Virus record (IMG/VR): IMGVR_UViG_3300010368_000009
Location: 1-64,000 of that record
DNA: 64,000 nt
Strand: one strand, 5' to 3'
Source of the DNA: a virus
Shown here: one piece after another, positions 16,756-58,939 of the stretch
Position numbering within the stretch: the stretch's first letter is position 1
Layout: the number at the start of each line of letters is the position of its first letter
Notes under the pieces: model-generated
Seen by the model: the letters and a program-made list of their open reading frames with translations, nothing else
The model's database searches: none
Told to the model about the DNA's origin: nothing
Made by a program: the position numbers and the translations under genes

Positions 16756-16838
16756 GGGCAGGACTCTGGTAGGGAAACCGCTGCGGCGTTAATGAACAAA
16801 TGCAAACCCCATGGGTTCAATTCCCATCCTGTCCACCA
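16756..16838 (+). tRNA. tRNA-like element with abnormal anticodon arm
   Basis: Acceptor GGGCAGG/CCTGTCC (one G-T pair), A73, CCA and a perfect T-arm ATGGG-TTCAATT-CCCAT show a tRNA body of 83 bases. The D-arm contains GGT/ACC around AGGGAA. The best anticodon stem is GCGTT/AATGC, but it closes an 8-base loop AATGAACA without a T at position 33, so no normal anticodon can be assigned. It could be an expanded-loop tRNA, a degenerate tRNA or a tRNA mimic. Confidence 0.6.
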
Positions 16839-17556: not shown

Positions 17557-17633
17557 GGCTGGTTAGCTTAATTGGTCAAAGTCGGAGCCTCTAAAACTCC
17601 CAGATATGGGTTCAAGTCCCATACCAGCCACCA
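17557..17633 (+). tRNA. tRNA-Sup(CTA), amber suppressor
   Basis: A class I tRNA: acceptor GGCTGGT/ACCAGCC, A73 and CCA; D-stem GCTT/AAGT; T-arm ATGGG-TTCAAGT-CCCAT. The anticodon stem is GGAG/CTCC plus a C-A mismatch at 31-39, enclosing CTCTAAA, so T33 is followed by anticodon CTA at 17591-17593, which reads UAG. A TCT (Arg) reading would need an off-centre loop with C at position 33 and would lose the stem. The amino acid cannot be told from sequence alone. Confidence 0.82.
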
Positions 17634-28686: not shown

Positions 28687-29817
28687 ATGATGAAAACTTA
28701 TCTGGTTGGCGGCGCTGTCCGTGATAGCATGATGAACCGGAAATCAAAGGACAACGATTTCGTTGTTGTTGGTTCCACTCCTGAACAAATGCTTTCCAAT
28801 GGTTTCACCAAGGTTGGTGCAGACTTTCCAGTCTTCCTTCATCCTGAAACCAAGGACGAATACGCACTGGCACGTCGCGAGCGCAAGACTGGTACGGGCT
28901 ACAACGGGTTTGAAGTTGTCTTTGATCCTTCGGTAACCCTGATCGAAGATTTGGCTCGTCGTGACCTGACCATCAATGCAATCGCTATGGATGACGATGG
29001 CGTGGTTGTTGATCCGTTTAACGGGCAACGTGATATCTATGATCGTGTTCTTCGTCCGGTTAGCCGCGAAGCATTTGCTGAAGACCCGGTTCGTGCTCTT
29101 CGTGTTCTTCGGTTCCTTGCCCGGTTTGGTAACAACTGGAAGATGGCTGATGAACTGGTCGAGCTGCTGGTTGATATGCGTGATTCAGGTGAGTTTGAAC
29201 ATCTGGTCAAGGAACGTGTTCTTGCTGAAATGATGAAGGCGATGTCAGAACCACATTGGTATCTCTTCTTCACCACCAAGATCATGGGTCGGCCACTGTT
29301 TGAAGAAATCATCGAACAGATGGTTCCGGTGAATTTTAAAGTCAACATGGGCCATCTTGACCTGTCACGCGCTGAGTTGATTCAGGTTAAACGAATAAAA
29401 ACCAACAAACATCGTTTTTCGTGTGCCGTTGAAATGGTTCATGGTTTCGAAGACCTGTTGAAGTTCCTGAAGGCATCAACTGCTACACATAATCAAGTCA
29501 AAGCTGACATGGCCATCCAATGTGTACACAGGGTATACTGGGGTGATAAAGTATCCCCGGCGGAAATGGCCAAAATAGCGGTCGATAAACTCGAACTGTT
29601 TGATGATCAAAGTCCGATTTTTCGTTTTGTTCAAAATCATGCTGATAACCAATTGGTATCGATGATGTTGAAAGCACGTGAAAAAGCCATGATGGTCAAA
29701 TTTCATAATGCTATACTGCCGGGTGACACGAACCAAGAAGCGGCACAACGTCTTCATGATTTTAGACTGGCGGTAATGTGTCGGGAAATAGCGAACGCTA
29801 CTGATAATGAAGTGTAA
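28687..29817 (+). CDS. cca: CCA-adding tRNA nucleotidyltransferase
   Basis: A 376-residue class II tRNA nucleotidyltransferase that adds or repairs the 3' CCA. MKTYLVGGAVRDSMM is the nucleotide-binding GG/R start, KDNDFVVVGSTP carries the metal carboxylates, EYALARRERKTG and RRDLTINAIAMDDDG are the family motifs, and EDPVRALRVLRFLARF is the neck helix. The tail is helical without a clear HD domain. Two adjacent ATGs fit the GGGAGAG site. Most tRNA genes here already encode CCA, so repair is as likely as synthesis. Confidence 0.94.
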   Translation: MMKTYLVGGAVRDSMMNRKSKDNDFVVVGSTPEQMLSNGFTKVGADFPVFLHPETKDEYALARRERKTGTGYNGFEVVFDPSVTLIEDLARRDLTINAIAMDDDGVVVDPFNGQRDIYDRVLRPVSREAFAEDPVRALRVLRFLARFGNNWKMADELVELLVDMRDSGEFEHLVKERVLAEMMKAMSEPHWYLFFTTKIMGRPLFEEIIEQMVPVNFKVNMGHLDLSRAELIQVKRIKTNKHRFSCAVEMVHGFEDLLKFLKASTATHNQVKADMAIQCVHRVYWGDKVSPAEMAKIAVDKLELFDDQSPIFRFVQNHADNQLVSMMLKAREKAMMVKFHNAILPGDTNQEAAQRLHDFRLAVMCREIANATDNEV

Positions 29818-38556: not shown

Positions 38557-40188
38557 TTACCGAACGAATTCAGCCATTACCGATGGTGCGTTAGCATCAA
38601 ATCCAACGATGTCGAGCATGCCCGGATCGTCTGGGTTAGCAATAGTGAACTCCGTTGCAGTCATACCAACAACAACCAGCTTTGCGTTGATGCCGGTCTT
38701 CTTGCGATAGTCACGAAGTGCTTCATGTGGATGAATGCCACCAGCCCATGTTTCATTATCCGTGTAGATAACAAAGACATCAACTTCAATACCATTATCC
38801 ATTGCATAAAGCATTGGTGCTGCGCAATCGGTTCCACCGAATGGAAGACCACTGACCTTGCTAATCACGCCACTAAGCGTTGACGCCCGGCCAAAGTTTA
38901 GTGGCGTGACACCACGATCACCTACCGAAGACGATCCACGACCCCAACCACCACGTGAAGGACTCGTGAAAGAAACAGTATGAGTAACCGGTTCTGTCTT
39001 CATTGTGATGAGAGCCATTGCAGCTGAAGCATCACGTGCAGTCAGATTGGTATTCATAATGTTTTCCCAACCCATTGAGCCGGAAACATCAAGTGCAAGC
39101 AGATGACGCTTTCCAGTAGGAACAACATTCTTGAAGGCCAACATAAATGCTTCTTCAAGAGCGGACGTAATGTTTCCATTAACATTCCATGTGTTATTAC
39201 CACGGAAACCCTTACCACTTTCGTAAGTCTTCAGAGCAAGAAGCACCGCCATTGGGTGGATACGTGACTTATGGATCAAATTTTGGTCCGTAAGACGACG
39301 CACTGCTTCTTGTTCAAACTCGGACATTGGCTTGAATAGATTGATCTTATCCGAAGACATATTTCCGAGATTACGGATCATAGCGGTCATTGGCATCTTA
39401 TCAAAAAGAGCTTCCCAAACCTTTGGTTCGTTCAACATTTCCGTTGGAAGTGCTTCACGAGGCAGGTTAGCGTTCTTGATCAGATCAATCGTTTCCTTCA
39501 CTGTTGCTGTCTTCACCATTTCGTATGCAGTGATGATAGCAGGCAGGTTAGCGGCATCTACTGGACGCCCGGACAGCCAACGGAAGAGCGAGTTACGCTC
39601 TGTGTCGTCTGTCTTAGGGTGTGCCAGACGAAGCAGGTCAAGGTGTGTCCAACCTTCGCGTTGACGATACTTCGTTGTCTGATAGGCAAGATCATCAACC
39701 GTTTGGTTGATATACCAATTACCGACAGCACGACGAAGCGCTGGACCCCAACCACGGAACTGTTCTATGAATTCCGCGAACTGGAACAGGTGTGTACCGA
39801 TACGAGCAACACGAGGCAGAGCCGCAAGAGCGTATGCAGCAACCTTTGGGTTAGCTGGATCACAAGCCATTGCGAGTGCAAACAGAGCTGCATCGTTACG
39901 ATATGCACGACCGTTAACAGAAACGTCAACAATAAGATCGACTGCACGGAAACCATTTTCAGCGATTGCCGTCTTCATGGAGTCTGCATTGCTAAGCGTG
40001 AGTTCACGAGCGGATGCATAATATGATGGTGCATCCGATCCAAGAATCAGGAATCGTTCAAGACGACCGAAGCTATCCAGCGTGAACGAATATCCGCCCG
40101 CGTTGTTTTCCGCCTGCTTAGGGGAAGCTGCTTCTGTTTGTGGGGTTTGTCGGTTACGAGTTCCGACATTCTTATATGCAGTTGCCAT
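38557..40188 (-). CDS. rsr: Ro60/TROVE RNA-binding protein
   Basis: A 543-residue Ro60 (Rsr) homologue, a ring protein that binds Y RNAs outside its ring and misfolded or processed RNA ends inside. TROVE landmarks are FGRLERFLILG (40-50), a HEAT-like repeat region, and TTKYRQREGWTHLDLLRLAHPK (171-192). The C-terminal VWA domain has the MIDAS LALDVSGSMGWEN (364-376) with later FGGTD and YTDNETWAGG. Both domains are full length. GAAGGAA precedes the ATG at 40188. It is the last gene of a minus-strand unit that begins with five Y-RNA-like elements (40253-40828), which supports the call. Confidence 0.95.
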   Translation of the reverse strand: MATAYKNVGTRNRQTPQTEAASPKQAENNAGGYSFTLDSFGRLERFLILGSDAPSYYASARELTLSNADSMKTAIAENGFRAVDLIVDVSVNGRAYRNDAALFALAMACDPANPKVAAYALAALPRVARIGTHLFQFAEFIEQFRGWGPALRRAVGNWYINQTVDDLAYQTTKYRQREGWTHLDLLRLAHPKTDDTERNSLFRWLSGRPVDAANLPAIITAYEMVKTATVKETIDLIKNANLPREALPTEMLNEPKVWEALFDKMPMTAMIRNLGNMSSDKINLFKPMSEFEQEAVRRLTDQNLIHKSRIHPMAVLLALKTYESGKGFRGNNTWNVNGNITSALEEAFMLAFKNVVPTGKRHLLALDVSGSMGWENIMNTNLTARDASAAMALITMKTEPVTHTVSFTSPSRGGWGRGSSSVGDRGVTPLNFGRASTLSGVISKVSGLPFGGTDCAAPMLYAMDNGIEVDVFVIYTDNETWAGGIHPHEALRDYRKKTGINAKLVVVGMTATEFTIANPDDPGMLDIVGFDANAPSVMAEFVR

Positions 40189-40252
40189 AATATTATTTCC
40201 TTCTCTCTTATACTTTCTCTTTAATAAGACAATATAAGACGAAGCGGATATC

Positions 40253-40335
40253 TTAACGAGCAAATGAGTTGCAGTGGATATGGTTTGTCAAAGTATGAGT
40301 CTGATTATGATAATCCATTACATCCGGCACGTTAA
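40253..40335 (-). ncRNA. Y-RNA-like element 1 (nearest Ro)
   Basis: Read on the minus strand, the ends TTAACG/CGTTAA close a stem, followed by TGC-CGG-ATG on the 5' side and CAT-TT-GC on the 3' side. This gives the internal loop CGG/TT between paired GC and ATG/CAT. The interior has TGGATTATC paired with ATATCCA. No tRNA-like body is present. It ends 64 bases upstream of the Ro start codon. Confidence 0.72.
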
Positions 40336-40353
40336 TATTACTATATTACTAAT

Positions 40354-40499
40354 ATGGCTTTGTGAGCAAATGTATAGAAAATAGGGTTTAAGCGCTCTAC
40401 CGCTGAGCTACCAAGCCGCGAACGACCTGAGTTGGATTCGAACCAACGACCTCTCCATTACAAGTGGATAACCTATTTTCATCCGGCTCACAAAGCCAT
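40354..40499 (-). ncRNA. Y-RNA-like element 2 with permuted tRNA body
   Basis: Minus strand: a 13-bp outer stem ATGGCTTTGTGAG/CTCACAAAGCCAT, the CGG/TT internal loop, then GAAAATAGG paired with CCTATTTTC. Inside lies a tRNA in permuted order. First comes the 3' half, with CCACTTGTAATGG (loop CTTGTAA, TGT) and T-arm GTTGG-TTCGAAT-CCAAC. Next is the acceptor strand TCAGGTC, a 6-base linker, and the 5' half GGCTTGG-TA with D-arm AGCTCAGCGGTAGAGC. Acceptor strands pair at all seven positions with three wobbles. No CCA is encoded. Confidence 0.78.
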
Positions 40500-40504
40500 T
40501 TTAG

Positions 40505-40651
40505 TAAGACGAGTAAATGAAATGACAAAGGGATAATATACAGTTGCGTCTACCAATTCCGCCACTCCCCGTTAGATTGGTCGGGGAGACAGGACTTGAA
40601 CCTGTAATACTCACTGTTCCTTAGATAACCCTAAATCTCCGACACGTCTTA
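40505..40651 (-). ncRNA. Y-RNA-like element 3 with permuted tRNA-Leu body
   Basis: Minus strand: outer stem TAAGACG/CGTCTTA; the GC pairs next to the CGG/TT loop are changed to GT/AC, a compensatory change that supports the helix. Inside is a permuted class II tRNA. The 3' half carries CTAAGGA-ACAGT, T-arm ACAGG-TTCAAGT-CCTGT and acceptor CTCCCCG plus ACCA. A linker ATCTAA leads to the 5' half CGGGGAG, a Leu-type D-arm and ACTGT. ACTGT pairs with ACAGT, and the loop would read AAG (Leu). The acceptor is perfectly paired. Confidence 0.8.
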
Positions 40652-40682
40652 AATCATTTCCTTCTTTGTTCAGTCGTTAGTA

Positions 40683-40751
40683 GTTACGAGCAAATTGTTG
40701 AAAATGGGGGTTCATCAACAAAAGATAACCCACTCTCATCCGGCACGTAAC
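40683..40751 (-). ncRNA. Y-RNA-like element 4 (short)
   Basis: Minus strand: stem GTTACG/CGTAAC, TGC-CGG-ATGA opposite CATTTTC...ATTTGC, inner stem GTGGGTT/AACCC with extra Cs, and the conserved GGTTATC. 69 bases, without a tRNA body. Confidence 0.74.
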
Positions 40752-40760
40752 CGCTTTAGT

Positions 40761-40828
40761 ACTGCGAGCAAATTGTTTGAAATGGGGGTTCATCGTTGCA
40801 AGATAACCCACTTCATCCGGCCCGCAGT
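40761..40828 (-). ncRNA. Y-RNA-like element 5 (promoter-proximal, short)
   Basis: Minus strand: stem ACTGCG/CGCAGT, GCCGGATGA opposite ATTTGC, inner GTGGGTTATC with GATGAACCCCCA. It is nearly identical to element 4 in the core but has a different, compensated outer stem. It begins about 18 bases after the -10 box of the array promoter. Confidence 0.75.
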
Positions 40829-40846
40829 CTTATTGCGATGTGGATA

Positions 40847-55888: not shown

Positions 55889-55923
55889 CGTTCCCCCAGA
55901 CGTTATGTTGACGGTTGCATCGG

Positions 55924-55957
55924 AGAATGGCTCTTGGAAACAAGGGCCATTCTTTTT
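55924..55957 (+). terminator. intrinsic terminator after rIIB
   Basis: AGAATGGC/GCCATTCT with inner CTTG/CAAG closed by a GAAA tetraloop-like turn, followed by TTTTT. Confidence 0.9.
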
Positions 55958-55980
55958 ATGTAAACTTTGAAATATTTTTA

Positions 55981-56008
55981 TTGACTCTATTGGTGATTTG
56001 CCTATAAG
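55981..56008 (+). promoter_or_regulatory. promoter of the tRNA-Gly/tRNA-Met pair
   Basis: TTGACT (55981-55986), 16-base spacer, TATAAG (56003-56008), 9 bases before tRNA-Gly. Confidence 0.75.
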
Positions 56009-56017
56009 TAACATGAT

Positions 56018-56093
56018 GCGGATGTAGCTCAGTTGGCAGAGCGACAGATTTCCAATCTGTATGTCGTCGGTTCGAACCCGTCCATCCGCTCCA
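56018..56093 (+). tRNA. tRNA-Gly(TCC)
   Basis: Acceptor GCGGATG/CATCCGC, T73, CCA; D-arm GCTCAGTTGGCAGAGC; anticodon stem ACAGA/TCTGT around TTTCCAA (anticodon TCC); T-arm GTCGG-TTCGAAC-CCGTC. Confidence 0.94.
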
Positions 56094-56099
56094 AGATTT

Positions 56100-56177
56100 G
56101 GTGCTGTAGCTCAGTTGGGAGAGCGCCACGCTCATAACGTGGGTCAGTCATCGGTTCGAGTCCGATCAGCACTACCA
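56100..56177 (+). tRNA. tRNA with CAT anticodon (Met or Ile2)
   Basis: Acceptor GGTGCTG/CAGCACT with G1-T72, A73, CCA; anticodon stem CCACG/CGTGG around CTCATAA; T-arm ATCGG-TTCGAGT-CCGAT. The third CAT tRNA of the window; decoding AUA as lysidine-modified tRNA-Ile2 cannot be excluded. A small hairpin CCATC-GAAA-GATGG follows at 56181-56194. Confidence 0.9.
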
Positions 56178-56285
56178 ATTCCATCGAAAGATGGAAACAT
56201 TAACTTGCGGTTGCTACAGTTCCTCACCTGAAGAGATAGGCCGGTAGCATTAAATTAAATGGATGCGTTCAGCCGTATTTTATAC

Positions 56286-56314
56286 TTGACTTATAGAAAT
56301 TCAACCTGTATACA
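56286..56314 (+). promoter_or_regulatory. promoter of the basic micro-gene
   Basis: TTGACT (56286-56291), 17-base spacer, TATACA (56309-56314), 36 bases before the ATG at 56351. Confidence 0.75.
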
Positions 56315-56350
56315 GATAATACAGAAACAACATACAAGGTAATAAACATC

Positions 56351-56497
56351 ATGGCAAAGCACGCATCTGGTAATACTCATGTCGTTGGTGTACGTAAGCG
56401 CACCAGCATTGGTAACTCCTTCCGTTCGGGCGACAAGTCCAAGAATGCGAAAAGCCGTAATGGTTCTCGCTTCACACGTGGTCAAGGTCGTCCGTGA
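56351..56497 (+). CDS. small very basic protein
   Basis: A 48-residue protein (MAKHASGNTHVVGVRKRT ... RFTRGQGRP) with about a quarter Lys/Arg and almost no acidic residues, Ser/Gly-rich and probably disordered when free. It has its own promoter and an AAGG site somewhat far from the ATG. It resembles a ribosomal-protein-like or nucleic-acid-coating tail. It stands directly before the large structured RNA block, so RNA binding is a fair guess but only that. Confidence 0.6.
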   Translation: MAKHASGNTHVVGVRKRTSIGNSFRSGDKSKNAKSRNGSRFTRGQGRP

Positions 56498-56516
56498 ATA
56501 AAATGCAGTAACGGGG

Positions 56517-56545
56517 TTGACTTTATATAGATCGCCCTGTATAGT
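56517..56545 (+). promoter_or_regulatory. promoter of the structured RNA block
   Basis: TTGACT (56517-56522), exactly 17 bases, TATAGT (56540-56545). Transcription would begin at the foot of a strong hairpin. Confidence 0.78.
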
Positions 56546-56551
56546 ATAAAT

Positions 56552-57200
56552 CATCGGCGGGGAGTTACTTCCTAGTAACTCCCCGCCGAAAGAATTGAAT
56601 GCTCTTTGACATTGTTGTGTGAAGCTTAGAACAGCTTCCGTTGGAGCATCGGGATAGATACTCCTTGTTTAACGAAAATAAACACTGTTGTGCTATTGGC
56701 ATGGTATGATGGGTTCCGGTGTTTCATCGCAAGTTGTTCTAAAAGTTTGTTGACACAGATGCATGTGTTGTATTGGTGACCATAACCGGAGTACGGGGCG
56801 GAACTTTTACTGATCATTGCGGAATGCCTAGTTTAAATGGCGTGTGTCAAAGCCGGTGTCCCGTTTAAATCTGGGGATGTGACCGGCCTCGTCATCTTAC
56901 AAAAGAGAGTCCAAACGTTTTCTAGAAACGACAAAAACTCAGCTCTGGTGGCCACAGAGAACCGGATATTCTCTTAATAGAGATAGCTTCGGGTGACGAG
57001 ATATAGTTTTCGTGTACTGACTAGAGTGCACACAAGTTCCCTTCGGGGAAGGCATCTTATGGTGTCTTAGTGAATGGACTGACAAAAGAGAATATGGGCG
57101 GTAACCTGTAGGATCACAAATCAGTCGCCTTTACCGAGGAAAATCGGTTATTGTCATTCTGTTGGCATCACCACCAGAGTGGCTTACAGTCGGGAATTAG
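56552..57200 (+). ncRNA. large structured non-coding RNA
   Basis: About 650 bases with no credible gene, starting just after a strong promoter. The 5' end is a perfect 14-bp hairpin (GGCGGGGAGTTACT/AGTAACTCCCCGCC, 56556-56587). Further hairpins are CTCTGG-TGGCCA-CAGAG (56944-56960), TCTCT-TAAT-AGAGA (56970-56983), TTCCC-TTCG-GGGAA (57037-57050, a UUCG tetraloop), GGCATC-TTAT-GGTGTC (57051-57066) and ACCGA/TCGGT (57133-57148). Size, phage origin and position next to tRNAs resemble ornate RNAs such as GOLLD or ROOL, but I cannot confirm a family. It leads without a gap into the tRNA-like array. Confidence 0.65.
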
Positions 57201-57323
57201 TTTAGAGATGGGACGTAGCTCAATATGGTAGAGCTTCTTAATCCCGGCCACTTTGGAAAACGAACTGGTCCGGTAATGTCAAACGTTGTATGCGGGTTCG
57301 ATTCCCGTCGCCTGTCATCTAAA
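57201..57323 (+). ncRNA. tRNA-like element A with enlarged anticodon arm
   Basis: Normal D-arm TAGCTCAATATGGTAGAGC and T-arm GCGGG-TTCGATT-CCCGT, with GATG-GGACG paired to CGCCTGT-CATC as a lengthened acceptor, itself flanked by TTT/AAA. In place of a 7-base anticodon loop is a long arm: TTA-CCGG-CCA pairs with TGG-CCGG-TAA. A CAA-ACG-TTG variable arm follows. No decoding anticodon is apparent. Confidence 0.6.
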
Positions 57324-57358
57324 CTAGCTGTTTCGTCCAAATGGACAACAATAACTAT

Positions 57359-57442
57359 GCGTGCCGACTTAGACACATAGTCCGTAATACAAATGAGTGT
57401 CTGGATACGGTTGTAATGGGTTCGACTCCCGGTAGGCATGCA
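57359..57442 (+). ncRNA. tRNA-like element B with possible pseudoknot
   Basis: Acceptor GCGTGCC/GGCATGC (7 bp) and T-arm TGGG-TTCGACT-CCCG. The centre holds two interlocked pairings: AGACAC (57371) with GTGTCT (57397), and CCGTA (57382) with TACGG (57406). These cross, so a pseudoknot or alternative folds are possible. No standard D-arm or anticodon loop. Confidence 0.55.
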
Positions 57443-57453
57443 AATGATCTTAT

Positions 57454-57575
57454 AGTCGTTGGCTGTATTATCAGAAACAACACAAGGCCGTTGAGAATCC
57501 AGCGTGTTGTTTCTGGTAGGTGTCTAGATGGATATAGCTACCATCTAAGGAGTTCAAGTCTCTTAACGACTGCCA
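57454..57575 (+). ncRNA. tRNA-like element C with hairpin in the D region
   Basis: Acceptor AGTCGTT/AACGACT fully paired, G73, CCA and T-arm AGGAG-TTCAAGT-CTCTT. The D region holds an inserted perfect 11-bp hairpin AGAAACAACAC/GTGTTGTTTCT with a 20-base loop. The anticodon-position arm is TAGATGG/CCATCTA with a 9-base loop ATATAGCTA lacking a normal anticodon. 122 bases. Confidence 0.65.
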
Positions 57576-57736
57576 ATAATATCGAGTGAAGCACTGTCAT
57601 AACATAGTTCGCGCAGAGGCTTATTATTTCGGGCTGGTATACTGATGTGGAGTAGCGTAAGCTGACACCGATTAGTAATCAGTCAGGAATATACTCGGTA
57701 TTTTGTCAAGACAAATATACCTTATGATTATGGGGT
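57576..57736 (+). other. spacer between tRNA-like elements
   Basis: 160 bases without a gene. Contains a strong hairpin where GGTAT-TTTGTC pairs with GACAAA-TATACC (about 57698-57721). Probably part of the same transcript. Confidence 0.4.
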
Positions 57737-57813
57737 TGATCGATAATGCTCAGTCTGGTAGAGCTTTCTTACAAAAACTAGGAAGGTCGTTGGTTCAAAT
57801 CCAACTCGGTCGC
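57737..57813 (+). ncRNA. tRNA-like element D with 9-base anticodon loop
   Basis: Acceptor TGATCGA/TCGGTCG (7 bp with wobbles), D-arm GCTCAGTCTGGTAGAGC, T-arm GTTGG-TTCAAAT-CCAAC. The anticodon stem TTCTT/AGGAA closes a 9-base loop ACAAAAACT with no T33. No CCA is encoded. The closest of the set to a normal tRNA, yet unlikely to decode. Confidence 0.65.
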
Positions 57814-57821
57814 ATAAATAC

Positions 57822-57992
57822 TATCTATCAGTGCACGGGGTATGTGCACGCCTATATGTGAATCGCCCGTCCATCATCTGGTTACTGAGTAACAAGTAGG
57901 TAACAAATGGAGCAACGGGGGCAGTGAAGCAAGCGTTGAAAGTCGTCGAGGTTATGTAGACGATGGTTGGTTCGAATCCAATCTGATAGATA
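57822..57992 (+). ncRNA. tRNA-like element E, strongly expanded
   Basis: TATCTATCAG pairs with CTGATAGATA (10 bp) as an extended acceptor. A GTGCAC/GTGCAC hairpin takes the D-arm place, an insertion with GCCCGTCCAT/ATGG..ACGGG and GTTAC-TGA-GTAAC follows, then TCGTC/GACGA with an 11-base loop, and the T-arm TTGG-TTCGAAT-CCAA. 171 bases in total. Confidence 0.55.
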
Positions 57993-57994
57993 TA

Positions 57995-58130
57995 ATGGTG
58001 GCGTCATCTAGGAGCGGTGAAGTGTGCGTTCCGGGTGTTGCAGGCATGCAAACCTATGCGGCAGTCCTTTTCCGAGGGCGAGTCGATTCTAGTCGTTTAA
58101 CGAGCGACATGGCACCCCATCATTAAACGA
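57995..58130 (+). ncRNA. structured element F
   Basis: Opens with ATGG pairing to CCAT at 58117-58120 and ends with the hairpin CGTTTAA/TTAAACG (58094-58129) just before the ATP-grasp gene. A clear T-arm is not visible, so this may be a further degenerate tRNA-like unit or the 3' end of the long transcript. Confidence 0.4.
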
Positions 58131-58138
58131 GAAACATA

Positions 58139-58939
58139 ATGTTTTGGATAGTACAAGAAGATTTATATAACGAATACAATTATGATTCGTTTCTTGATTC
58201 GTTGAAAAGAATGAATATTGATCATGTATTGGTCAAGCCAATTCCATTTACCAATACACTGGTTGATGAAGATCAAATTCATATCGATGATACCAAACCG
58301 ATAATCGTATCAGGATCAATGGGATTAGTTCGTGTGGCTCGCCGTAGAGGTTGGAAGCCCGGATCATTCCTTGATGAAGATTTCGAATTCACTCAATGGC
58401 GTGATGGCTTCGGTAAAAAACATTGTATGAATGGATGGGGCAAGGTCAGTAAATTACGGGATGCATCTTTTTCCGGTAGCGATATATTCGTTCGTCCGAC
58501 AGCTGATAATAAATCTTTCAACGGAACTATTATGAACCGGGAAGAGTTTATTTGCTGGCGTGACCATTATGCGGACATCGAACCAACCGATGAATTTCAA
58601 TTACTCCATGCTGATACAGAAATTATGTTATGTCAGCCTAAAAACATTTCGGCTGAATACAGATTCTTTATCGCTGGTGGCCAAATTCTAACCGGAAGCC
58701 TGTATTCTAGAAATAGACGCGTCCTTTATCAAGAATGTGTTGATGCAGGGCCGATAGCATTCATCAATGCAATGATCGCCATATATCAACCAGCGGAAGC
58801 ATTCGTTCTAGATATAGCTTATATTCATGGTGAGTATAAAATAATTGAAGTTAATAATTTCAATTCATCTGGTTATTATGCTTGTGATGTTCAGAAAATC
58901 ATTGACGGGGTTGAACAATTAACTTACAAGTATGAATAA
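58139..58939 (+). CDS. ATP-grasp domain protein
   Basis: A 266-residue protein with an ATP-grasp ligase fold of the DUF4343 type found in phages and bacteria. The C-terminal core SAEYRFFIAGGQILTGSLY and FVLDIAYIHGEYKIIEVNNFNSSGYY supplies the Asp/Glu/Asn metal site; SDIFVRPTADNKSFNG is the earlier ATP-binding strand. Such enzymes ligate amino acids or similar groups using ATP. The substrate is unknown. It directly follows the tRNA-like array, and a GAG site precedes the ATG. Confidence 0.8.
   Translation: MFWIVQEDLYNEYNYDSFLDSLKRMNIDHVLVKPIPFTNTLVDEDQIHIDDTKPIIVSGSMGLVRVARRRGWKPGSFLDEDFEFTQWRDGFGKKHCMNGWGKVSKLRDASFSGSDIFVRPTADNKSFNGTIMNREEFICWRDHYADIEPTDEFQLLHADTEIMLCQPKNISAEYRFFIAGGQILTGSLYSRNRRVLYQECVDAGPIAFINAMIAIYQPAEAFVLDIAYIHGEYKIIEVNNFNSSGYYACDVQKIIDGVEQLTYKYE

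Follow-up and report, generated by a model that had tools for sequence, protein, structure and literature searches.

In the 64,000-nucleotide stretch of viral DNA analysed here (positions 1 to 64,000 of IMG/VR record IMGVR_UViG_3300010368_000009, henceforth referred to as the window), the plus strand between 57198 and 57992 carries five units that each combine the T arm and acceptor stem of a transfer RNA (tRNA) and of which none has a decoding anticodon arm. This array is the 3' part of one region of about 1.6 kb (about 56552-58127) that is poor in open reading frames (ORFs), strand-specifically structured and headed by a boxA of the ribosomal RNA (rRNA) type. We read the region as a single gene for a long noncoding RNA, carried by a large phage with an alphaproteobacterial host; the RNA would rely on rRNA-like antitermination and use tRNA-elbow modules for folding and processing, and we give this reading a probability of about 0.5.

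Five non-decoding tRNA-like units in a structured, ORF-poor region

The units were counted by scanning for a GC-closed T arm that is followed by an acceptor strand with a partner upstream. Five such combinations were found in 56500-58140; in 200 dinucleotide shuffles the mean was 0.035 and no shuffle gave more than 1. As the sequence-only reading of this DNA had claimed, all five T loops (TTCGATT at 57297, TTCGACT at 57421, TTCAAGT at 57553, TTCAAAT at 57794 and TTCGAAT at 57971, all on the plus strand) are present together with paired acceptors, and the T stems are GC-closed and 4-5 bp long in every unit. Unit A scored in the scan through an alternative 7-bp partner, and a strict count without it is four. 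ARAGORN, run either with default settings or with introns of 0-400 nt allowed, found no tRNA in the array, and only unit D (29.7 bits) reached the Rfam tRNA threshold of 29 bits. The T arm and acceptor stem of a canonical tRNA are found in five units, and neither ARAGORN nor the predicted folds show a 7-nt anticodon loop on a 5-bp stem in any of them: the arms are replaced or, in unit D, carry a 10-nt loop. The earlier description of the anticodon loops as non-decoding or absent is borne out.

The units, all on the plus strand, differ in what has been kept around the T arm and acceptor. Unit A (57198-57326, fold z-score (z) -3.6) has a consensus D arm, a T arm and a long acceptor whose best predicted pairing, 57198-57215/57309-57326, contains bulges; its centroid structure is identical to its minimum-free-energy (MFE) structure, and a CCGG arm replaces the anticodon arm, as had been proposed. 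Unit B (57358-57442, z -1.1) consists of an 8-bp acceptor, a T arm and an AGACAC/GTGTCT stem without a D or anticodon arm, and a pseudoknot between CCGTA at 57382-57386 and TACGG at 57406-57410 is possible. In unit C (57453-57575, z -4.4), the acceptor TAGTCGTT/AACGACTG is followed by an encoded CCA and accompanied by a T arm. Its D-position hairpin, described earlier as 11 bp long, does exist, with a predicted length of 16 consecutive pairs plus 4 inner pairs, and its anticodon-position hairpin is predicted to have 7 bp and a 9-nt loop. The nine-base loop that had been assigned to unit D belongs to this hairpin of unit C. Unit D (57737-57812, z -1.5), which is the most tRNA-like, has a 7-bp acceptor, a D arm recognisable by sequence, a T arm and no CCA. 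Unit E (57822-57992, z -2.4) has a 10-bp acceptor, a 7-bp hairpin in the D position and a T arm, and the large insertion previously noted in it corresponds to a structured insert of roughly 90 nt. Two further modules are without a T arm: a stem-rich one between units C and D (57590-57733, z -2.6) and module F (57993-58127, z -2.6), a closed multi-stem domain that lies just before a start codon at 58139 and for which MFE and centroid structures agree exactly. The statement that the inserted stems are perfect holds best for unit C and fairly for units A and E; it does not hold for units B and D.

Upstream of the array, a structured domain occupies 56618-57190 on the plus strand. No ORF of at least 70 aa is present in 56555-57196 or in 57590-58138, and two ORFs of 80-82 aa lie between these intervals (57197-57439 on the minus strand and 57341-57589 on the plus strand). 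The two halves of the region, folded as 56540-57190 and 57185-58135, gave z of -5.1 and -3.9, respectively. When 240-nt windows over the whole contig were compared after correction for G+C content, the mean z over the region was -1.28 on the plus strand and +0.86 on the minus strand, from which we take the plus strand as the direction of the RNA. Elsewhere in the contig, structured-looking windows at 81.9-86.2 kb include tRNAs and an apparent intergenic hairpin read from the sequence.

A host-type boxA and a counterpart in a related phage

At the upstream edge of the region, a sigma-70-like promoter (TTGACT-17-TATAGT, 56517-56545, plus strand) is the best of 10 matches in 55900-58300 and agrees with the consensus at 10 of 12 positions. 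The match alone is weak, as shuffles yield 5.4 matches, and the call is strengthened because it adjoins a 5' hairpin and because a related phage (see below) has TTGACT-17-TATAAA before its boxA. The hairpin is G+C-rich, has 16 bp (56554-56589, plus strand) and is placed at the expected 5' end of the transcript. It is followed by the rRNA-type boxA, the 18-mer TGCTCTTTGACATTGTTG (56600-56617, plus strand), which is identical in the related phage. In a search of one genome per species for about 85,000 bacterial and archaeal species, the 18-mer proved to be mostly alphaproteobacterial. We kept 80 loci, and in 25 of the 38 bacterial loci that extend far enough downstream for the test, 16S rRNA begins 184-371 nt downstream of it. 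Judged by sequence, this is the boxA that serves antitermination in the leader of alphaproteobacterial rRNA operons; the gammaproteobacterial boxA consensus is GYTCTTTAANA (PMC5725501). The 12-nt core of the 18-mer, TGCTCTTTRACA, is present a single time in the 101-kb contig to which the window belongs and a single time in the 335-kb relative, in both cases at the point where an ORF-poor RNA begins; a search of three other large phages did not find it. The E. coli boxA is required for the recruitment of antitermination factors and suffices for it (PMC10250234), and in the window boxA stands near the 5' end of what we infer to be a long untranslated transcript.

The relative, IMGVR_UViG_3300031957_002643 (335 kb, henceforth G001), was found through its ATP-grasp protein. 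Both loci have in common the gene order RIIA, RIIB, tRNA-Gly, tRNA-Met, ATP-grasp (69% identity), tRNA-Gly, with RIIA and RIIB of G001 identified by reading the sequence. Between homologs of a 48-aa small ORF (54% identity over 35 residues) and of ORF 58951 (30%), G001 contains an ORF-poor stretch of about 3.6 kb in which boxA heads an ORF-poor RNA of about 3.1 kb, preceded by the promoter mentioned above (L052:11874-11902, read from the sequence). Directly after boxA, CATTGTTGGGAAATAAGTGAG pairs with CTCACTTATTTTCCAACAATG located 3.06 kb downstream, which gives a leader-trailer helix of 21 bp with one G-U pair (L052 11928-11948/14990-15010) that is present in the minimum-energy fold. For comparison, E. 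coli needs a leader-trailer helix longer than 17 bp if its 30S subunits are to be active (PMC10250234). The scan found two tRNA-like units in the G001 RNA, versus 0.025 expected, and a third is visible by eye near L052:12304. Outside boxA, the alignment of the two RNA bodies was no better than that of shuffles. The G001 RNA is a positional and architectural counterpart of the window's RNA, and homology of the bodies is not proven.

Searches for further relatives through RIIA yielded none, and neither boxA nor a suitably placed long ORF-free region was found at any of 80 loci with the 48-aa small ORF. In blastn against 50,697 phage records, the window's RNA had short tRNA-like matches only and the G001 RNA had four weak short matches. 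The 48-aa ORF is basic, ends in TRGQGRP, adjoins the RNA in the window (56351-56494, plus strand) and has relatives in no fewer than 80 stretches of viral contigs. Another structured, ORF-poor stretch, about 0.4 kb long (L052:11400-11790, plus strand), separates the small ORF of G001 from the promoter of its giant RNA.

The counterpart in G001 bears on two alternatives. One is that the region is a long 5' untranslated region with regulatory structure for the ATP-grasp gene that starts at 58139, since the last module stops 12 nt short of this start codon and no terminator-like site was found at the 3' end of the RNA. However, in G001 the ATP-grasp gene precedes the RNA, after which comes a different ORF, and we regard this explanation as very improbable. 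The other, to which we give hardly more credence, is that the array is a row of decayed tRNA genes with insertions in a former tRNA island. The units are clearly tRNA-derived, and two intact tRNAs lie just upstream (56018-56177). Against decay stand the long uninterrupted stems of units A, C and E, structure on one strand only, the promoter, a boxA that is unique in the contig and the boxA-led counterpart in the relative; moreover, no unit is a recognisable copy of the intact tRNAs of the contig, the only other blastn match being a Y RNA module. The sequence-only reading had likewise argued against a decayed tRNA row, and it had offered, among other possibilities, that the units are modules of one giant RNA together with the block at 56552. 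The promoter, the 5' hairpin, boxA, plus-strand structure and the counterpart now support that option, and the five units are probably under selection and part of one long RNA with this block. That reading had not recognised boxA, the promoter or the apparent rRNA-like mode of transcription.

Proposed production and possible roles of the RNA

To see what boxA heads in other phages, we compared its 16-nt form with a reversed control in viral contigs, where the two were found in 71 and 22 stretches, respectively. Of 47 distinct boxA contexts, 26 lay outside ORFs (1 of 11 in the control) and 13 had a same-strand tRNA within 1.5 kb (0 of 11 in the control). On these figures, boxA heads tRNA operons in the phages concerned. 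GOLLD with an internal tRNA also scores above the Rfam threshold in two contigs that have boxA-led tRNA operons (L071:1079-1643, minus strand, expectation value (E) 7e-51; L096:6859-7338, plus strand, E 3e-46). In L096, GOLLD lies about 4.4 kb downstream of boxA and we infer that the two share one transcript; L071 has, about 20 nt after GOLLD, a tRNA-like unit whose acceptor is 14 bp long. Two observations from this survey concern other arrangements. A second boxA context (L082, L086, L117, L121, L122 and L136) has a CACTAGGG-type hairpin after boxA, with 0.4 to 1.1 kb to the next 120-aa ORF and no tRNA nearby, and at L076:9806-9999 (minus strand) a group I intron directly follows boxA within a tRNA-Leu-like gene.

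The favoured reading of the window can be put as a sequence of steps. Host RNA polymerase would start at about 56552, and boxA at 56600 would recruit the antitermination factors that the host uses for its rRNA, beginning with NusB and S10, whereby the untranslated RNA of about 1.6 kb would evade Rho and fold during its synthesis. The first 0.6 kb or so of the body would be an ornate domain. The modules after it would be based on the tRNA elbow, in which the acceptor stacks on the T arm; they would have swapped their decoding parts for other stems and would serve both as folding units and as points at which RNase P, RNase Z or RNase III cleaves, much as happens in operons that combine rRNA and tRNA. 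The finished RNA may act like the GOLLD and ROOL RNAs of tRNA islands, that is, as an abundant structured RNA, perhaps oligomeric, with its tRNA-like modules outermost.

Two rival explanations accept the units as functional and assign them a different fate. If the boxA-driven transcript resembled a tRNA operon, it could be cut into A to F, each with a separate function. The predicted fold, in which the modules are mostly closed separately with short linkers and no leader-trailer helix joins them, is consistent with this, as are the boxA-led operons of other phages, which are tRNA polycistrons; it is at odds with G001, where a 21-bp helix closes a single RNA about 3.1 kb long, and we consider such a polycistron unlikely. 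Only slightly better placed, and still unlikely, is the proposal that released units are decoys that compete, through acceptor and T arm and with no cleavable anticodon, for host tRNA-directed enzymes (anticodon nucleases, other tRNA-targeting defences, CCA enzyme, RNase P and EF-Tu). All five units have kept the T arm and acceptor and none has kept a decoding anticodon arm, and unit C terminates in an encoded CCA. Anticodon nucleases recognise mainly the anticodon loop, and this feature is missing from the units. In addition, CCA is encoded in unit C only, the extended acceptors of units A and E differ from free tRNA ends, and the units are embedded in a longer structured transcript that also includes a 0.6-kb domain unrelated to them. 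In favour of decoys, phage tRNAs have been proposed to evade anticodon nucleases (PMC10264068), and a suggestion of a decoy-like kind has been published for YrlA (PMC7790460).

Several results weigh against, or limit, the case for one long antiterminated RNA. The corrected window z is modest in the array (mostly -0.2 to -1.7, with one value of +0.1), the strong value of -4.5 being at the 5' end, and units B and D are no more stable than shuffles. A leader-trailer helix was looked for in the window's own RNA and not found. The counterpart is present in one relative only, the unit number differs between the two phages, and because the bodies are unalignable neither their homology nor covariation is established. 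Finally, boxA in other phages mostly heads ordinary tRNA operons and so marks a mode of transcription and not a product.

A more specific version of the favoured reading, which we hold only tentatively, is that a phage produces an rRNA-operon-like giant RNA of its own, in which a host boxA, together with a leader-trailer helix in one relative, drives a very abundant RNA of 1.6-3.1 kb made of several non-decoding tRNA-fold modules; such RNAs would form a class apart from GOLLD and ROOL and could act as an RNA particle or as a competitor of ribosome assembly and tRNA enzymes. We know of no function for the giant noncoding phage RNAs. That phage noncoding operons, true GOLLD loci included, carry the host rRNA antitermination signal points to a shared production route with a testable mechanism (NusB-S10 recruitment), and boxA offers a handle of 16-18 nt for finding further such RNAs. 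The array would also be a case in which tRNA folds are reused several times within one RNA after decoding was lost. Our search of the open-access literature brought up no publication that describes boxA at GOLLD or in noncoding operons of phages, which is not proof of absence.

Comparison with known RNA classes

Rfam covariance models, searched with E up to 10, found nothing beyond tRNA and chance hits in either the window's RNA or the G001 RNA. Neither matched GOLLD (RF02032), for which L071 and L096 served as positive controls and passed the gathering score, and neither matched ROOL, OLE, raiA or the other giant RNAs of Rfam. GOLLD is a giant phage RNA that occurs close to tRNA islands and whose linker region sometimes contains tRNAs (PMC12286853). 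The window's RNA resembles it as a large, ornate, structured phage RNA near tRNAs and differs in that the tRNA-like units are several and non-decoding. Size, ornate structure and placement near tRNAs are also shared with ROOL, an RNA of phages and prophages near tRNA islands that is reported to be as abundant as 16S rRNA (PMC12286853). The likeness to the leader of bacterial rRNA operons lies in the identical 18-nt boxA and, in G001, in the 21-bp helix right at boxA, whereas the body is not rRNA, as neither RNA has a small-subunit or large-subunit rRNA match in Rfam.

Y RNAs (YrlA) also contain a non-decoding tRNA-like module, and unit D shares 30 nt at 93% with a Y RNA module of the same phage. 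Unlike in Y RNAs, the Ro-binding stem GCCGGATGA-N-GGGTTATC cannot be recognised in the array, which also lacks an adjacent Ro gene. We rejected identity with Y RNA, since Ro60 sits at 38557-40263 with its own Y RNAs and YrlA matches near the array only over the intact upstream tRNAs. At the Ro60 locus itself, about five Y RNAs (40300-40830, minus strand) lie upstream of the Ro60/TROVE gene (minus strand), and two of them carry a permuted tRNA in the loop, with the 3' half before the 5' half. This arrangement is kept in G001 (L051:13250-13730, minus strand), and sequence similar to the locus occurs in Caulobacter phage CcrColossus and Mycobacterium phages Sparky and Nappy.

With transfer-messenger RNA (tmRNA), the units share a tRNA-like end and a long insert replacing the anticodon arm. 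Identity was rejected because ARAGORN -m found none in 56500-58200 and the fragmentary Rfam matches reached 13.6 and 14.8 bits against a threshold of 47. Elsewhere in the window, a non-decoding tRNA-like RNA with a T arm, a 7-bp acceptor and an encoded ACCA (16756-16838, plus strand) scored 29.8 bits with the tmRNA model, which is under the same threshold. A tRNA with a CUA anticodon (17557-17633, plus strand) is of the amber suppressor type, and TAG ends 7 of 49 ORFs of at least 180 aa, which indicates no wholesale recoding. The window also encodes the head domain of a poly(A) polymerase or CCA-adding enzyme (28687-29814, plus strand).
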